Of a stretch of DNA of 64,000 nt, positions 4,412 through 33,874 are shown piece after piece. Within the stretch, counting starts at the first letter, position 1, and each line of letters begins with the position of its first letter. The stretch comes from Chloroflexota bacterium (lineage in GTDB: Bacteria; Chloroflexota; Limnocylindria; Limnocylindrales; CSP1-4): positions 1 to 64,000 of the forward strand of contig JACPOS010000002.1 of assembly GCA_016191395.1 (NCBI GenBank), in the 5' to 3' direction. Position numbers and translations under genes: made by a program. The notes beneath the pieces are model-generated. The model ran no database searches and had not been told where the DNA came from. It saw only the letters and a program-made list of their open reading frames with translations.

Positions 4412-5248
4412 TCACCGGTCCCACAGCCCGAGCCAGGCCACGACCACGACGGCCGCGAGCACGATCCGGTAGAGCACGAACACGCCCGTGCTGTGCGTTC
4501 GGAGGTAGCGCAGCGTCGCGGCGATCGCGAGCAGGCCCGCGGCCAGGCTCGCGAGCATGCCCAGGGCGAGCGGGGCGAGCGGCACGTCCACGCCCGCCTC
4601 GCCGGTCAGGATCTTCCGGAACTCCCACAACCCGGCGCCGGCGGTGATCGGCGTGGCCATCAGGAACGAGAAGCGGGCCGCAGCCTCGCGATCGAGGCCC
4701 GCGAACAGCCCGGCGGAGATGGAGATGCCGGAACGGCTGATGCCCGGAACCAGCGCGAGCGCCTGCGCCGCGCCGATGCCAATGGCGATCGGGAACGTGA
4801 CACCATCGATCTGGCGAGTCCTGGACCCGAGGCGATCGGCAAGCCACAGGATGGCCGCGCCGATCACGAGCGTGACGGCGACCAGGCGGGGCTCACGGAA
4901 GGCCGTCTCGATGGCGTCGTTGAGCAGGACGCCGGCGATGACCGCCGGGATGGTGGACGCGACCAGCAGCCACGCGAGCTTGCGGTCCGTGTCACCCCGG
5001 AACGACCGGTCGCGGATCGCCGCGAGCCCGGCCGGGATGAGCCGTCGCCAGTCAGCCTGGAAGTACAGCAGGAGCGCCAGCAGCGTGGCCACGTGGAGCA
5101 TCACGCTGAACGCGAGGCTCTCGATGAACGGATCCGTCCAGCCAAGCAATGCCGGAACGATGATCAGGTGCCCCGAACTGGAGACCGGCAGGAACTCCGT
5201 GAGTCCCTGCACCATCCCCAGGACGATGGCCTGGATCAGTTGATCCAT
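4412..5248 (-). CDS. uppP: Undecaprenyl-diphosphatase UppP (BacA)
   Basis: 278-residue polytopic membrane enzyme that dephosphorylates undecaprenyl pyrophosphate to recycle the lipid carrier of cell-wall synthesis; overproduction gives bacitracin resistance in other bacteria. The two conserved regions are visible: GLTEFLPVSSSGHL near the N-terminus, with the catalytic Glu and Ser-rich loop, and VPGISRSGISISAG in the second half with the essential Arg. About eight hydrophobic segments are present. It lies 38 nt downstream of hppA in the same direction, so two enzymes that act on pyrophosphate bonds are probably co-transcribed. Confidence 0.95.
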   Translation of the reverse strand: MDQLIQAIVLGMVQGLTEFLPVSSSGHLIIVPALLGWTDPFIESLAFSVMLHVATLLALLLYFQADWRRLIPAGLAAIRDRSFRGDTDRKLAWLLVASTIPAVIAGVLLNDAIETAFREPRLVAVTLVIGAAILWLADRLGSRTRQIDGVTFPIAIGIGAAQALALVPGISRSGISISAGLFAGLDREAAARFSFLMATPITAGAGLWEFRKILTGEAGVDVPLAPLALGMLASLAAGLLAIAATLRYLRTHSTGVFVLYRIVLAAVVVVAWLGLWDR

Positions 5249-7497: not shown

Positions 7498-7622
7498 TGG
7501 GCTGGGTGATCCTCCAGGCTCATGGGTTCGTGCACGGACACCCGTGGGCAGGGCGTCGCACGTGCATGGTTCTCAGGAAAGGCGATGGCCCTTGCTCGAT
7601 TGAGCCCTCCGGGCCGCGCCGG

Positions 7623-27167: not shown

Positions 27168-27508
27168 GCGTGGCGCTCGTACCGCTCGCGATCCTGATGG
27201 GTCTCGCGACGTATCCGTTCCGGGCGGTGCCGCTCCTGGCGCCCGGCATGCATCGGCTGCCGGCGCGGGTCCGGCTGTACCTCCGCCTCGTGGGACCGGC
27301 CGTCCTCGCCGCCCTGGCAGCGGTCGACACGATGGTCATCATCGATGCCAGCACCCGCCAGCCGCAGTTCCACATCGGCGCGGAGTGGCTCGCGGTGAGC
27401 CTGTGCATCGCGGTCGTCGCGCTGCGCCGGAGCCTCTTGATCGGGCTCGTCCTGGCGGCGGCGGTCATCTCGATCCTGCGGGCGACGGGGTTCGCGACGC
27501 TCCCCTAG
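27164..27508 (+). CDS. azlD: AzlD-type branched-chain amino acid exporter, small subunit
   Basis: 114-residue membrane protein with about four hydrophobic segments, the size and pattern of AzlD/YgaH. The N-terminus VALVPLAILMGLATYPFRAV fits the family. Its ATG overlaps the azlC stop. Its last four bases overlap the end of the convergent Rid-family gene (27505). Confidence 0.85.
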   Translation: MSVALVPLAILMGLATYPFRAVPLLAPGMHRLPARVRLYLRLVGPAVLAALAAVDTMVIIDASTRQPQFHIGAEWLAVSLCIAVVALRRSLLIGLVLAAAVISILRATGFATLP

Positions 27509-27903
27509 CCCCGCCGCGCGTCCGCCTCGATCTCGACCAGCAGGCTCGGCTCGATGAGCGCCTTGACCACGAGCGCCACAGAGGCCGGCCGAACGTCGCG
27601 GAAGACCTCGCCATGGACCTCCGCGACGGGCGCGATGTTGCCGACCTCCGTCACGTACATGCGCGTCCGGACGACGTCGGCGATGTCGAACCCGGCCTCC
27701 ACCAGGGCCCGCTCGATGATCTGGAGCACCGCCCGCGCCTGCGCCGCCGGGTCACCTGGGTGGAGCGAGCGGCCATCGGGGCCGGCGTCTGTCGTCCCGG
27801 AGACGTGGCACATGTCGCCGGCGACGATCGCGCGGCTGTAGCCGAAGCGAGCCTCCCATGGCCCGCCGCTGGAGACTCGCTGCCGCGCCCCGCCAGCGCT
27901 CAC
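27505..27903 (-). CDS. Second RidA family protein
   Basis: 132-residue Rid-family protein, more divergent than the copy at 19.8 kb. EARFGYSRAIVAGDMCHVSG aligns with the family N-terminus, and VRTRMYVTEVGNIAPVAEVH with the central helix. The C-terminal Arg-containing loop is less clear (PEVIxVR-like text is replaced by RPASVALVVKALIEP), so it may belong to a non-archetypal Rid subgroup. The GTG start at 27903 directly follows four 14-bp repeats that connect it to the M20 peptidase gene; in a repeat-free ancestor the two would overlap by GTGA. Confidence 0.8.
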   Translation of the reverse strand: MSAGGARQRVSSGGPWEARFGYSRAIVAGDMCHVSGTTDAGPDGRSLHPGDPAAQARAVLQIIERALVEAGFDIADVVRTRMYVTEVGNIAPVAEVHGEVFRDVRPASVALVVKALIEPSLLVEIEADARRG

Positions 27904-27959
27904 GACGCGGCGCTCACAACGCGGCGCTCACAACGCGGCGCTCACGACGCGGCGCTCAC
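27904..27959 (-). repeat. Four 14-bp tandem repeats forming a chain of coupled mini-ORFs
   Basis: Reading on the minus strand there are four units of GTGAGCGCCGCGTC or GTGAGCGCCGCGTT (starting at 27959, 27945, 27931 and 27917), and a fifth partial unit forms the start of the Rid gene (27903). Each GTG opens a five-codon frame (M-S-A-A-S/L) whose TGA overlaps the next GTG as GTGA. The M20 stop codon is the TGA of the first unit, and the Rid start is the GTG of the last. The distance between ancestral stop and start is exactly 4 x 14 bp. Confidence 0.9.
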
Positions 27960-29215
27960 GACGCGGCTGGAGTGGCCCGCCAGCTCGCGACCTCGGGGTC
28001 GCGCGACACCTCCAGCAGCAGCGCAGCGAGGAGTGCCGTCCGGGGCACGATCGAGTCCACCTCGAGGAACTCGTCCGGTGAGTGGTCCAGCCCTCCGACC
28101 GGCCCCAGCCCGTCGATCGATGGGACGCCCATGCCCGAGGTGGTGTTCGCGTCCGACGCGCCGCCCGTCGACACGTCCTTGGTCTCGAAGCCGAGGCGCG
28201 CGGCCAGCGCGATGACGTGATCCGCGAGCCGGCCCGATCGCTCCAGCTTCTCCATCGGCGCCCACGTGTGCATCATCTCGACGTCGACCGAGACGTCCGG
28301 CACGCCCGGTGCCGCGGCGAGATCCCGGATGGCGCCGATCGCCGAATCGAGCGGCCCAGCGGCCATCGCGCGCACGTCGATCTGGAGCTCCGCCTGGTCG
28401 CACACGATGTTCGGGCGGGTCCCGGCCTTGAACACGCCCACGTTCGTGGTAACGGCAGGCCAGCGGCCGTTGAGCTCGTGGATGCCCTTGACGATCTCGG
28501 CGCCGGCGAGGATCGCACTGCGGCCCTTCTCCGGCTCCACGCCTGCGTGCGCGGCGCGGCCATTGATCGTCAGCCGGATGTCGGCCATGCCCTTGCGCGC
28601 GGACACGAAGTCACCGTTTGCCCGCGCGCACTCGAGCACGAACGTGGCGTCCGCGGTGGCCGCGATCTCCTTGATGTGCGGCGTGGACGACGGCGAGCCG
28701 ATCTCCTCGTCCGGGTTCGCGACGAACGTCAACTGCTCGAACGGCAGCCTGCTCGGTCCGCTGCCGACGCCCAGCGCCCGGACAGCCGCGATGGCCCGCA
28801 GCCCGGCGAGGAGGCCGGCCTTCATGTCGCTGACACCTGCGCCATGGGCGATCGAGCCGTCGATCCGGAACGGCCGCTTCGCCACCGTCCCCTCGGAGAA
28901 CACCGTGTCCATGTGGCCGATGAGCAGGACCCGCGGACCCGATCCACGCGCGCCCTCGAACGTTCCGATCACCGTGTCGCCGTACCGGCCCCTCGGGTCG
29001 GGCCGGCGCTCGACCGTCGCACCCATCGACGCCAGCTCGGCCGCCACCAGGTCGCCGATCTGGTTCACCCCGGCCGGCGTGTAGCTGCCGCAGTCGATGT
29101 TGCACATGTGCTCGAGGTCGGCGAGGAAGGCCGGGAGCCCCTCCTCGACGGTGGCACGGAGGGTGTGGAGCTCAGCGTCGGTGATGTCGTTGCCAGGGGC
29201 AGTCAAGGTGGTCAC
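27956..29215 (-). CDS. M20 family metallopeptidase (carboxypeptidase G2-like)
   Basis: 419-residue di-zinc peptidase. Metal and catalytic residues are present in order: LIGHMDTVF (His ligand and Asp), GAGVSDMKAG (bridging Asp), NPDEEIGS (catalytic and ligand Glu) and LDHSPDE (C-terminal His ligand). Members remove C-terminal amino acids or cleave dipeptides in the cytoplasm. It is divergent from the Mur ligase gene, next to cyanophycin synthetase and cyanophycinase, so cleavage of the beta-Asp-Arg dipeptide released by cyanophycinase is an attractive but unproven role. The GTG start at 29215 lies 6 nt after CATACT. Confidence 0.88.
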   Translation of the reverse strand: MTTLTAPGNDITDAELHTLRATVEEGLPAFLADLEHMCNIDCGSYTPAGVNQIGDLVAAELASMGATVERRPDPRGRYGDTVIGTFEGARGSGPRVLLIGHMDTVFSEGTVAKRPFRIDGSIAHGAGVSDMKAGLLAGLRAIAAVRALGVGSGPSRLPFEQLTFVANPDEEIGSPSSTPHIKEIAATADATFVLECARANGDFVSARKGMADIRLTINGRAAHAGVEPEKGRSAILAGAEIVKGIHELNGRWPAVTTNVGVFKAGTRPNIVCDQAELQIDVRAMAAGPLDSAIGAIRDLAAAPGVPDVSVDVEMMHTWAPMEKLERSGRLADHVIALAARLGFETKDVSTGGASDANTTSGMGVPSIDGLGPVGGLDHSPDEFLEVDSIVPRTALLAALLLEVSRDPEVASWRATPAAS

Positions 29216-29221
29216 GGTCGA

Positions 29222-29248
29222 AGTATGCCCGTTGCCCGTTGCTATCCT
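29222..29248. promoter_or_regulatory. Divergent promoter pair, M20 peptidase (minus) and Mur ligase (plus)
   Basis: CATACT on the minus strand (29222-29227) is 6 nt before the M20 GTG. TATCCT on the plus strand (29243-29248) is 9 nt before the Mur ligase GTG. The two start codons are only 43 bp apart. The hexamers occupy approximately each other's -35 position. Confidence 0.55.
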
Positions 29249-29257
29249 CGCCGGACC

Positions 29258-30979
29258 GTGCGCCTGATCGAGATTCGACCGCTGGATGGACCGAACGTGT
29301 ACCGGCTGGAGCCGGTGCTGAAGCTCGAGGTCGCGATCGGGCGGCGGCGGACCTGGTTCGGGCAGCGGGATCCCGCGCCGTACAACCTCGTGCGACTCGG
29401 CGCGAACGTGCCGCGATCCGCCCGGCACGTGCGCATCGCGGCGCTCGCCGACTGGATTCGCAGGCTCCGGCGCGAGCATCCGGACGGCGCGACCGGCGCC
29501 GTGACGGTCCACCAGTCATCCGATCCCGGCTACTGGATCCTCGCCTGGCCCTGGGCGCTGGAGGACCGCGCCCGAGCGATCGCCGAGGCCGCGTTGACGC
29601 TGATCGAGAAGGACGTCCGGCCGGGCTCGAAGGAACGGCTCACCCCGCGCCAGCAGCGCCTCGTCGAGAACCTTGGCGCGCGCATCGAGGGCGCGACCGG
29701 CCCGGCCCCGAGCTGGATCCGCGACGCGGACCGCCACCTGCCCGTCGTGTCGATCACCGGCACGAACGGCAAGACCACCACGACCCGGCTGATCGCCCAC
29801 ATCCTTCGCCAGGCAGGCATGCGCGTCGGCGCGACGACGTCCGACGGGATCGTGGTGGGCGCCGAGATGGTGGAGCCGGGCGACTGGACCGGGCCCGGAG
29901 GCGCACACGCCATCCTCGGCCGCGATGACCTGGACGTGGCCGTGCTGGAGACCGCCCGAGGCGGAATCCTCCTGCGCGGCATGGGCTACGAGTCCAACGA
30001 GGCGAGCGTCATCACCAACGTCTCCTCGGACCACATGGACCTCCAGGGCATCCACACGCTCCCGGAGCTGGCGGAGGTCAAGGCCACCGTCGCGCGGATC
30101 ACGAAGCCCGACGGCTGGGTGGTCCTCAACGCCGACGACCGGTACGTGGCGGACATCGCTCACCGGGTGCGGGCCAGAGTCGCCTACTTCAGCCTCGAGG
30201 GTGATCGGTCACCGCTCATCCGCCGCCACCTGCGCGCCGGTGGCCGCGCGTACCTGGTTCGAGACGGTGGCATCGGCGAGGCCGAGGGCGATCGATGGCG
30301 GGACATCACGGCGCTCGCATCCGTACCGATCGCGCTCGGTGGCGTGGCGCGGCACAACGTCGCGAATGCCCTTGCGGCGGCAGGCGCGTCCCGGGCGATG
30401 GGCGTCTCGCTGGACGCCCTTCGGCGCGGGCTCCGATCGTTCGTCCCGACCACCGACGCATCGCGCGGCCGGCTGAACGTGTTCCGCGACGCCAACAGGA
30501 TCGTGATCGTGGACTTCGCCCACAACGAGGCGGGCGTCGCCGTCCTGCTGGACGTCGCGGAGTCGATGGCCCGCACCGCCGGCAGACAGCAGCCTGCCCC
30601 GATTACCGCGATCGTTGGCCTCGCCGGTGACCGGCCGGACGACACGCTTCGCGGCGTCGGGCGGATCATCGCGGGCCGCGTTGACCGGCTCGTGCTGAAG
30701 GAGATGCTCCACTACCTCCGCGGTCGGAGCCGCGAGTCCGTGATCGGCGAGATCAGTGCCGGCGCCAGGGAGGGCGGCTGGCACGACGAGCTGCCCCTGT
30801 ACGGCTCAGAGGTGGAGGCGATGGCCGCAGAGCTGGATCGGACGTCCGAAACCCGCGGCGTAGAGGTCATCGTCCTGCTCTGCCACGAGCAGCGCGAGGA
30901 GATCTTCCAGCTGCTGGCCGAGCGCAGCTTGCGCCCGATCGATGCCCCCGCGGAGCTTGCCCGGCTGGTGGCCGGGTAG
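29258..30979 (+). CDS. Cyanophycin-synthetase-like Mur ligase lacking the ATP-grasp domain
   Basis: 573-residue protein. Residues about 1-130 resemble the N-terminal domain of cyanophycin synthetase (IRPLDGPNVYRLEPVLKLEV compared with LDTRVLRGANYWSRQPVVKM in the neighbouring CphA). A Mur-ligase-type ATP-binding domain follows directly, with SITGTNGKTTTTRLIAHILR, DGIVVGAEMVEPGDWTGPGG, LETARGGILLRGMGY and VITNVSSDHMDLQGI. The middle ATP-grasp domain of CphA is absent. In CphA the Mur part attaches arginine to the aspartate side chain, so this protein may perform a side-chain ligation alone. Its 3' end converges with cphA, 9 bp apart. Start GTG at 29258. Confidence 0.8.
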   Translation: MRLIEIRPLDGPNVYRLEPVLKLEVAIGRRRTWFGQRDPAPYNLVRLGANVPRSARHVRIAALADWIRRLRREHPDGATGAVTVHQSSDPGYWILAWPWALEDRARAIAEAALTLIEKDVRPGSKERLTPRQQRLVENLGARIEGATGPAPSWIRDADRHLPVVSITGTNGKTTTTRLIAHILRQAGMRVGATTSDGIVVGAEMVEPGDWTGPGGAHAILGRDDLDVAVLETARGGILLRGMGYESNEASVITNVSSDHMDLQGIHTLPELAEVKATVARITKPDGWVVLNADDRYVADIAHRVRARVAYFSLEGDRSPLIRRHLRAGGRAYLVRDGGIGEAEGDRWRDITALASVPIALGGVARHNVANALAAAGASRAMGVSLDALRRGLRSFVPTTDASRGRLNVFRDANRIVIVDFAHNEAGVAVLLDVAESMARTAGRQQPAPITAIVGLAGDRPDDTLRGVGRIIAGRVDRLVLKEMLHYLRGRSRESVIGEISAGAREGGWHDELPLYGSEVEAMAAELDRTSETRGVEVIVLLCHEQREEIFQLLAERSLRPIDAPAELARLVAG

Positions 30980-30988
30980 CGCCTGGCG

Positions 30989-33874
30989 TCAGCCTTCGGG
31001 CGCCTCGAGCTCGCCGGGGTCGGCGAAGGCGGTCTGGCCCTCGCGCTGGCCGGCACTGGCCATGGCCTCGCGATAGACCGCGATGGAGTCGTCCACGCAC
31101 ATCACGACCAGGTCGCCGGGATTGGCGCGTCGCAATGCGTTCTTCACCGCCGCCAGCTCGTCCAGGATCTTGTCGACGCGCACGGTCCGGCCCGTGCCTT
31201 CCTCGCGCGCCCGCCGGACGCCGTCCGCGACGAGGTTCGCGGACACCCCGGGCTCGCGGCCGCGGAGGTTGCGGTCCTCGCGGATGATGATCTCGTCGAA
31301 CGCGCCGGCCGCGTAGGCCCCGTAGTCGCGCATGTCCTCGTCCCGGCGGTCGCCGGGCATGCCGATGACCCCGAGCGCGCGGCCCGTGCGGCCGGTGGAG
31401 CCGTCGCCGTCGCCGTTCATGCGGCGCGCGAAGTCCGCAAGATTGCGCATGCCGTCGACGTTGTGGCAGTAGTCGATGACGACCCGAACCCCGCCGACCT
31501 CCAGGTAGTTGAGCCGGCCCGGGGCCTGGAAGAAGCTCGTCGTGAACGTGCGCAGGCCCTGCCGGATGTCATGCAGGTGCGCGCCGGCGGCCCACGCGGC
31601 CGCGGACGCCGCGAGCGCGTTGGCCACGTTCATCCGTGCGCGGCCCCCGAACGTCGCCGGCACCAGGTGCGTGTACAGCACGGGCATCGTCCGCGGACCG
31701 TGGCGCAGGACGATCTGGTCGCCATCGGGCGTGTGCCGGATGACGAACGCGGCGCCCCCGCGCCCGCAGTAGCCATCCACGCGGTCGAAGCCGGGCTGGC
31801 CCTTCTCGGTCTCCATCGAGAACAGGATCACCGTGCCGCGGCACTCGGACGACAGGCGTGCGACGTACGGGTCGTCGGCGTTCAGGACGGCGGTGCCGGT
31901 GCGCGGCACGGCCTGGACGAGCACCCCCTTCACGTCCGAGAGCTGGCGCAGCGTGTCGATGCCGCCCAGGCCCAGGTGATCCGCGGTCACGTTGGTGACC
32001 ACGGCAACGTCCGCGCGGTCGAAGCCGAGGCCCTCGCGCAGGATCCCGCCCCGCGCCACCTCGAACACGCCCGTGTCCACGGTGGGGTTCTGGAGGATCA
32101 TCCGCGCCGACTTGGGCCCGGACATGTCGCCGCGCCGGATCGTCCGCCCATCCACGACGATGCCGTCGGTGGAGGTCATGCCCACGCGCCGGCCCATCAG
32201 CTTCAGGACGTGGGCGATCATCCGGACGGTCGTGGTCTTCCCGTTCGTGCCGGTGACCGCGATGATCGGGATCCTGGCGGGCGCGCCCGGCGGGAAGAGC
32301 AGGTCGATGACCGGCTTGGCGACGTACTGCGGCTCGCCCTCGGTCGGGTGCGTGTGCATCCGGAAGCCGGGCGCCGCGTTGACCTCCACGATCGCGCCGC
32401 CGGTCTCGCGGACGGGCACGGTGATGTCCGGGCAGATGAAGTCGATGCCGGCGACGTCCAGGCCAACGACGCGGGCGGCCATCTCGGCGATCTCGACGTT
32501 GTCGGGGTGGGCCTCCAGCGTCCGATCGATCGACGTGCCGCCGGTGGACATGTTGCCGGTCAGCGCGAGCTTGACCCGCTCGCCCTTGGGCGGCACGGTA
32601 TCCAGGTCGAAGCCCTGAACCCGGACGAGGGCGGCGGCGGCGTCATCGACCTTGATCCGGGTGAGCACCTTCTCGTGCCCGATGCCGCGGCGCGGGTCCG
32701 CGTTCGTCTGGTCCACGAGCTCGCGGACCGTCTTGCGCCCATCGCCGACCACGGATGCGGGCACGCGCTCCGCGATCGCCGCGACCTTCCCGCCGATGAC
32801 CAGGCAGCGGTAGTCGTTGCCGGTCACGAACGTCTCGACCACGAGGTCGCCACTGCGGCTCTCTCGACGTGCCGCCTCGAACGCGGCGCGGATCTCGTCC
32901 TCGGTCCGGAGGTTCAGGTTGACGCCGCGCCCGTGGTTGCCGTCGAGCGGCTTGACGACGCACGGCAGCCCGACGCGCTTGGCCGCCGCCAGGGTGGCAT
33001 CAGCGGTCGTGACGACCTCCGACTTGGGCACCGGCAGGCCGGCCGAGTCGAGGAGGCGGTTGGTGAGGTTCTTGTCGCTGGCGATGTCGACGGCGATCCC
33101 CGAGGTCTGCGAGGTCATCGTGGCCCGGATCCGCTGCTGGTGGACGCCGTGGCCCAGCTGGACGAGGGAGTGGCGGTCCAGGCGCAGGGACGGGATGTCG
33201 CGAGAGGCCGCCTCGTCGAGGATCGCCTGGGTGGACGGGCCGTAGGCATGGCGCTCGGCGAGCCGGATCAGCCGCTCCAGCTCCTCGATGTAGTCCAGGG
33301 CCTGCTCGGGATCCGAGGGGGCGACAAGGTGGTTCACCAGCCGAACCGCGAGGACGCCGGCCTCCAGCCCGACGGCCTCCTCGCCGTACTCGTAGATGAC
33401 GTTGTACTGGCCCGCCGCGCCGGCGCCCCGCGTCTTGCCGTGCCGTACGGGCGTGCCGGCAAGGTTCTGCAGCTCCAGCGCGATGTGTTCGGCGACGTGC
33501 CCCACCCACGTCCCGTCCTTCAGCCGTGTCACGAAGCCGCCGCGGCGGTTCAGGGAGCAGGCGTGGTCCTCGAGCGATGGCATCCACGCCAGCAGCCCGT
33601 CGACGAACCCCGGGATCTTCGTCGTCGGGAACTGCTCGAGCACACCGAGGTCCACGAGCATCTTCACGACCGGCTGCCGCGACCAGTAGTTGGCGCCGCG
33701 CAGGACGCGCGTGTCGAGGATCCTCAGGGTCGGGAGTGGTCCCGCCGCGCCCTTGGCCGTGCGCGCGCCGGCGCCGTTCCGTTTCGAGGCGCGGGCGGCG
33801 ACCGCCTTCGCTGCCTTGGCCGTCGTCGTCTTCGTGTCGGGCGACGCCTTGGACGTCGCAGCGACCTTCGCCAA
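30989..33874 (-). CDS. cphA: Cyanophycin synthetase
   Basis: 961-residue enzyme that builds multi-L-arginyl-poly-L-aspartate, a nitrogen reserve. After an Ala/Lys-rich extension of about 45 residues come the N-terminal domain (ILDTRVLRGANYWSRQPVV), the ATP-grasp domain that extends the aspartate backbone (LPCVVKPLDGNHGRGVNLNL; AGIDFICPDITVPVRETGG) and the Mur-ligase domain that adds arginine (IAVTGTNGKTTTVRMIAHVL; FEVARGGILREGLGFD). The domain set is complete. The start codon is TTG at 33874 with AGGGGAGAGCAGG before it and a TAGGCT box at 33928-33933. The extension could dock to the polymer or be disordered. Confidence 0.95.
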   Translation of the reverse strand: MAKVAATSKASPDTKTTTAKAAKAVAARASKRNGAGARTAKGAAGPLPTLRILDTRVLRGANYWSRQPVVKMLVDLGVLEQFPTTKIPGFVDGLLAWMPSLEDHACSLNRRGGFVTRLKDGTWVGHVAEHIALELQNLAGTPVRHGKTRGAGAAGQYNVIYEYGEEAVGLEAGVLAVRLVNHLVAPSDPEQALDYIEELERLIRLAERHAYGPSTQAILDEAASRDIPSLRLDRHSLVQLGHGVHQQRIRATMTSQTSGIAVDIASDKNLTNRLLDSAGLPVPKSEVVTTADATLAAAKRVGLPCVVKPLDGNHGRGVNLNLRTEDEIRAAFEAARRESRSGDLVVETFVTGNDYRCLVIGGKVAAIAERVPASVVGDGRKTVRELVDQTNADPRRGIGHEKVLTRIKVDDAAAALVRVQGFDLDTVPPKGERVKLALTGNMSTGGTSIDRTLEAHPDNVEIAEMAARVVGLDVAGIDFICPDITVPVRETGGAIVEVNAAPGFRMHTHPTEGEPQYVAKPVIDLLFPPGAPARIPIIAVTGTNGKTTTVRMIAHVLKLMGRRVGMTSTDGIVVDGRTIRRGDMSGPKSARMILQNPTVDTGVFEVARGGILREGLGFDRADVAVVTNVTADHLGLGGIDTLRQLSDVKGVLVQAVPRTGTAVLNADDPYVARLSSECRGTVILFSMETEKGQPGFDRVDGYCGRGGAAFVIRHTPDGDQIVLRHGPRTMPVLYTHLVPATFGGRARMNVANALAASAAAWAAGAHLHDIRQGLRTFTTSFFQAPGRLNYLEVGGVRVVIDYCHNVDGMRNLADFARRMNGDGDGSTGRTGRALGVIGMPGDRRDEDMRDYGAYAAGAFDEIIIREDRNLRGREPGVSANLVADGVRRAREEGTGRTVRVDKILDELAAVKNALRRANPGDLVVMCVDDSIAVYREAMASAGQREGQTAFADPGELEAPEG

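Follow-up and report, generated by a model that had tools for sequence, protein, structure and literature searches.

Whether a ribosome that has just terminated scans for its next start or restarts immediately is still debated. Gene pairs whose stop and start codons overlap by -4 nt, as ATGA or GTGA, are coupled by termination-reinitiation (PMC6728339, PMC10666635). Specifically, reporters in E. coli and Haloferax indicate that coupling is strongest at overlaps, that 80-100% of it is lost at +38 nt, and that 15 nt from the end of the upstream gene are enough to establish it (PMC10666635). Short tandem units that can change in number by slippage are, in turn, characteristic of the phase-variable simple sequence repeats of contingency loci. 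Mycobacterial interspersed repetitive units (MIRUs), of about 46-101 bp, occur as tandem repeats in the senX3-regX3 operon. A MIRU is a short ORF-carrying repeat that sits at a gene start with a -4 nt overlap, and its insertion need not uncouple genes (PMC12548453).

The junction between an M20 metallopeptidase gene and a RidA gene in a 64,000-nt stretch of Chloroflexota DNA (contig JACPOS010000002.1, positions 1 to 64,000; hereafter the window) shares features with each of these systems and departs from all of them. As in the -4 overlaps (PMC6728339, PMC10666635), the chain at this junction is built throughout from -4 nt stop/start overlaps, and one such overlap is what joined M20 and RidA ancestrally; in the window, however, the one overlap has become five in series, with five-codon ORFs of tandem origin between them. 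As in MIRUs, the repeat has an ORF that is joined to the neighbouring gene by a -4 nt overlap, but MIRUs form one dispersed, apparently mobile family, whereas a search of the 2.42-Mb assembly for the two-unit pattern returned the window array only, and each of the arrays described here has a sequence of its own, made from the junction at which it lies, in units of 11-32 bp. The likeness to translated leaders and upstream mini-ORFs (PMC12548453) is that the sole role of a very short ORF may be to hand the ribosome to the next start; the window differs in holding several near-identical mini-ORFs in series between two full operon genes. Unlike the repeats of contingency loci, a change in unit number here alters neither protein and shifts no gene out of frame. 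A literature search that reached few subscription papers found no described case of tandem repeats at coupled junctions except MIRUs. As such, a locally grown tandem relay would be a variant on -4 overlap coupling and on MIRUs, itself apparently undescribed in the literature searched: a junction array with a closed stop-restart chain, which in the window reaches the downstream frame through mini-ORFs of [5,5,5,5] codons.

Architecture of the M20-RidA junction

Four 14-bp units lie head to tail between the M20 and RidA genes, as is read directly from the minus strand (Table 1). The unit is GTGAGCGCCGCGTC/T, and the units vary at this one C/T site only, in the order C, T, T, C. Five GTGA overlaps make up the chain: the first GTGA contains the M20 stop TGA (27956-27958), which has bases in common with the first GTG, the units meet one another through the same motif, and the last TGA of the array overlaps the RidA GTG (27901-27903). 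The first-pass annotation had described a relay of four GTGA-coupled five-codon ORFs on the minus strand, and a reading of the units, mini-ORFs and overlaps confirms it. Its figure of 56 bp from the M20 stop to the RidA start holds for the length of the array, which takes in the M20 stop; the stop-to-start gap itself is 52 nt. The accompanying argument that stop/restart closure keeps a chain of 14-bp units intact is also sound, within a rule somewhat wider than was stated: a unit length of 2 mod 3 makes the chain self-closing, one of 0 mod 3 would give an in-frame fusion, and one of 1 mod 3 permits closure only where the number of units is even.

Table 1 Features of the M20-RidA junction in the window, relays at the same junction in relatives, and arrays at other gene borders (bracketed figures, codons per mini-ORF)
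Feature	Coordinates	Strand	Details
M20-family metallopeptidase gene	27956..29215	-	GTG start at 29215; Pfam Peptidase_M20 2.6e-25, M20_dimer 1.4e-20
RidA gene (Rid family, Ribonuc_L-PSP)	27505..27903	-	GTG start at 27903; Pfam 9.6e-23
Relay unit 1	27946..27959	-	GTGAGCGCCGCGTC, ends GTC; mini-ORF VSAAS*; GTG overlaps M20 stop
Relay unit 2	27932..27945	-	GTGAGCGCCGCGTT, ends GTT; mini-ORF VSAAL*; sequence read
Relay unit 3	27918..27931	-	GTGAGCGCCGCGTT, ends GTT; mini-ORF VSAAL*; sequence read
Relay unit 4	27904..27917	-	GTGAGCGCCGCGTC, ends GTC; mini-ORF VSAAS*; TGA overlaps RidA GTG
14-bp repeat, full extent	27896..27967	-	5.1 copies, 96% matches; TRF score 130
Array as RNA: long imperfect predicted hairpin including RidA start	27880..27975	-	-58.6 kcal/mol, z -2.5
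M20-RidA relay, window (four-unit array)	27904..27959	-	gap 52 nt; [5,5,5,5]
M20-RidA relay, L046			gap 28 nt; [11] VRGRLARACAP*
M20-RidA relay, L065 (CSP1-4)			gap 24 nt; [3,7] MNA* VSRRVNR*
M20-RidA relay, L066			gap 16 nt; [7] VTVRTAP*
Array L317			two ABC permease subunits, PotB-like/PotC-like; named from reading sequence
Array L299			cysteine desulfurase / kinase-like protein; named from reading sequence
Array L297			FeS-assembly protein / cobalamin adenosyltransferase; Pfam
Array L315			cyclophilin-like protein / class-V aminotransferase-like protein; named from reading sequence
Array L233			Obg / NadD, three perfect 11-bp units; named from reading sequence
Array L348	G013:C248:12004-12119		MTHFR-family gene / DinB-like gene, eight 16-bp units; Pfam

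The array is far above chance. By TRF, the repeat extends slightly into both genes, over the last M20 codons and the first RidA codons, and no other tandem array in the window scores as high, the next one reaching 62. Among the arrays listed for 1.6 Mb of the genus with at least 2.8 copies and a period of at least 5 bp, it ranks second by score, and first among those at a gene junction.

The window comes from the draft genome of an uncultured Chloroflexota (2.42 Mb in 31 contigs, about 90% complete), probably a metagenome bin, and the related loci include CSP1-4 and Limnocylindrales bins. The M20 gene has a PRK06133-like NCBIfam match below cut-off. At E<1e-25, 13 of the 15 genus genomes hold a RidA ortholog, which adjoins an M20 gene in all except G007, and a second, distant RidA paralogue (C26, 34% identity) lies elsewhere in the genome. 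Downstream, RidA overlaps by four bases the end of a convergent AzlC-AzlD pair. On the other side of the M20 gene, the window encodes on the plus strand (29222-30976) a protein that has just the Mur-ligase half of cyanophycin synthetase, convergent with a minus-strand gene (30992-33874) for a full cyanophycin synthetase-like protein (Pfam Cyanophycin_syn 4.5e-40).

A Shine-Dalgarno motif was sought in the array units and is found in none of them; such motifs are present in about 35% of genes in the genus, against a background of about 15%. As RNA, the array is predicted to fold into a hairpin whose stability is matched by 4 of 200 shuffles and which strengthens with unit number.

The same junction in relatives

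The comparison set comprised 40 distinct junctions at which M20 and RidA are adjacent. The two genes join by a -4 overlap in 23 of them and by a -1 overlap in two, and the remainder are mostly within 11 nt or unclear. Because 23 of the 40 are joined by one 4-nt overlap, the array in the window is best read as the expansion of an ancestral single overlap, which bears out what the first-pass annotation had proposed. It had also called for a comparison of unit number across related genomes; the array is absent from the relatives' M20-RidA junctions, and in a set with one genome per species the copy numbers seen differ only between species.

A gap of more than 11 nt occurs at four junctions only, the window and three relatives (Table 1), and all four are closed stop-restart relays of unrelated sequence. 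Judged from these sequences, the M20-RidA junction seems to lengthen only in ways that close the chain.

Relays and arrays at other gene junctions

Relays are not confined to this gene pair. A survey of 1.6 Mb from three congeners, examined as 20-kb stretches, contained 938 same-strand junctions, with 239 direct overlaps and 27 relays whose mini-ORFs are mostly of 5-8 codons. A junction is compatible with a relay if its stop and start are both restartable and the frame fits; 18 junctions combine these features, where shuffling them gives an expectation of 9.9 (permutation p = 0.004). A second survey covered GTGA triplets in 107 family genomes at the frame-closing period 14 and at the non-closing periods 13 and 16. 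Complete gene-to-gene relays were found at 10 of 27 period-14 loci and at 0 of 28 loci of periods 13 and 16 (Fisher p = 0.0003). Period 17 gives 2 of 22, and pooling it with period 14 gives 12/49 versus 0/28 (p = 0.003); for near-perfect arrays alone, again with period 17 pooled, the counts are 5/27 and 0/21 (p = 0.06). These comparisons were made post hoc, on genes called by a home-made finder.

Across the same 107 genomes, arrays with units of 11, 14, 16, 17 and 32 bp recur at unrelated gene borders (Table 1). The orthologous Obg/NadD and MTHFR/DinB junctions of relatives are without arrays: at the former the genes join by a single overlap or in some other short form, in some cases through one mini-ORF, and at the latter by a single overlap in several relatives. 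A fixed spacing of 14 nt was considered as the key feature and discarded, as single relays use 2-19 codons (mode 5-8) and closed arrays use all five of the unit lengths above. The notion that all GTGA arrays are relays was likewise dropped, most period-11 arrays being non-coding.

For a frame-agnostic test of closure, TRF was run on all collected loci and arrays between two coding frames were kept, which yielded 29 gene-to-gene arrays. In eight of these the upstream stop is CTGA or TAG, and a relay cannot begin. Where the upstream stop is NTGA, the chain could be walked to the downstream frame in 21/21 arrays with none open, a count that includes L214 and L255 as trivial in-frame or direct cases and that is not to be converted into a probability, because the test was post hoc, with a home-made gene finder, and the loci had mostly been gathered with period-11/14/17 patterns, which biases them toward closed chains. 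Two arrays carry special weight because their periods should not close. Specifically, the eight 16-bp units of L348 close at every second unit, as [11,11,11], into the DinB-like gene, so that one added unit would shift the frame of the chain and two might not; in L320, with 13-bp units, a 1-nt insertion brings the total to 53 nt, which is 2 mod 3, and one 18-codon ORF closes the chain. The recurrence of unbroken chains at unrelated borders suggests that ribosomes hop along them from gene to gene.

Weighing the explanations

The available data are compatible with a model, which we regard as probable, in which slippage expanded the M20-RidA GTGA overlap into a relay that persists because it keeps RidA coupled. 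Slipped-strand duplication would have turned the ancestral 4-nt GTGA overlap into four extra 14-bp copies, each of them a complete stop-restart module because 14 is 2 mod 3 and the unit has a GTGA and no other in-frame stop. A ribosome ending M20 would restart at the overlapping GTG, read five codons, stop at the next TGA/GTG and repeat this cycle until it enters RidA, opening the predicted hairpin over the RidA start as it arrives. Since coupling is mostly abolished by +38 nt, the 52-nt gap is expected to uncouple RidA largely unless something spans it, as five-codon ORFs with -4 overlaps plausibly could; the expansion would thus have persisted because the relay keeps RidA translationally coupled. 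We infer that ribosomes use the relay, that its closure is under selection and that it attenuates RidA modestly at most. The closure of all four long M20-RidA gaps and of the 21 restartable arrays supports, indirectly, a role of the chain in RidA translation. Several observations weigh against such a relay, namely the eight gene-to-gene arrays whose CTGA or TAG stop cannot start one, the non-coding GTGA arrays L139, L199 and L201, which indicate that repeats also form without a coupling role, and the possibility that serial short GTG minicistrons shed ribosomes at each step. The units also have no Shine-Dalgarno motif, though only about a third of genes here carry one.

It is possible, if rather unlikely, that the expansion is neutral, a passing tandem duplication harmless to both proteins in which the relay is an automatic by-product of copying 14 bp around a GTGA and RidA is started independently, by its own initiation or by post-termination scanning. 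Any duplication of 2 mod 3 across a GTGA yields a relay for free, arrays do arise in non-coding sequence, the paralogue C26 is present in the genome, and the units of the array, which vary at one C/T site only, give no indication that purifying selection acts within it. Neutral slippage, however, predicts neither that arrays of the wrong period should be missing or compensated at gene-to-gene junctions nor that 4/4 long M20-RidA gaps should be closed by different sequences. The first-pass annotation had raised the possibility of a phase-variable rheostat, in which frequent changes of unit number within the population would set the RidA level stepwise. We consider this improbable, and such behaviour could also hold on top of the coupled relay favoured above. 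The array is perfect enough for slippage, gain or loss of units would leave both proteins unchanged and more units would strengthen the predicted hairpin over the RidA start, but the known relatives are without any array, and RidA and M20 are housekeeping-type enzymes rather than typical contingency genes. The hairpin also speaks for a role of the repeat as DNA or RNA, either as a protein-binding array or as a fold that masks the RidA start until opened by a ribosome. For a repeat of such high GC content, however, its z-score is modest; arrays elsewhere differ in sequence and have only the stop-restart frame logic in common, and a search around the array returned no Rfam family, promoter or terminator; a protein or RNA element was rejected on these last grounds, and we judge this reading very improbable. 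An assembly or binning artefact is the most improbable of all. In a draft assembly the unit count of a 72-bp repeat could be miscounted, but the array is shorter than a typical read, its C/T variants are ordered, the two orthologous genes that it precisely separates are intact, and many assemblies made independently contain arrays like it.

Outlook and further observations

Arrays of this kind present a natural experiment on scanning versus restart, as they seem to survive between genes only if every stop meets a restart, a pattern that points to ribosomes hopping through as many as four mini-ORFs in a row. The arrays also offer ready-made constructs, with 0-6 identical units, for determining the efficiency of reinitiation per step. 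For annotators, the rule that an inserted total equals 2 mod 3, or adds up from steps of that kind, could flag coupled junctions that now look like unexplained gaps of 20-120 nt. A more general proposition is that stop-start junctions let repeats grow as long as the chain stays closed, that the relays of 4-18-codon ORFs recurring in the family are a sign of serial reinitiation in vivo, and that their unit number adjusts how much of one neighbouring protein is made relative to the other; we advance it as speculative and think it unlikely in this full form.

Further repeats and relays were seen within the window and beyond it. Near position 1716 on the minus strand, a gene junction holds a one-step relay, ATGAGCGAGCTCGC ATGAGCG, with period 14 and a five-codon mini-ORF, and near 4412 on the same strand there is a two-step relay with six-codon mini-ORFs (GTGATGGCCGAGGTCCG GTGACCCGATGGAGGTC ATGA), its downstream start being uncertain. 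L139 (G010:C38:7522-7623) repeats the 14-bp unit GTGAATCGGCGGGC eight times perfectly in non-coding sequence, and L199, L200, L201, L228 and L234 are intergenic 11-bp GTGAnnnnCGG-like arrays, some well diverged, that lie outside gene-to-gene relays. A scan of 1302 starts for duplicated start contexts produced convincing cases only in the window and at L284, where a response-regulator start is duplicated as a 17-bp ATGA array (7526-7575; MKTNLR* MKSNLR* MKTILVVDD...). The L284 array has no close upstream gene and a TAGACT box lies just ahead of it; the response-regulator gene is perhaps leaderless.
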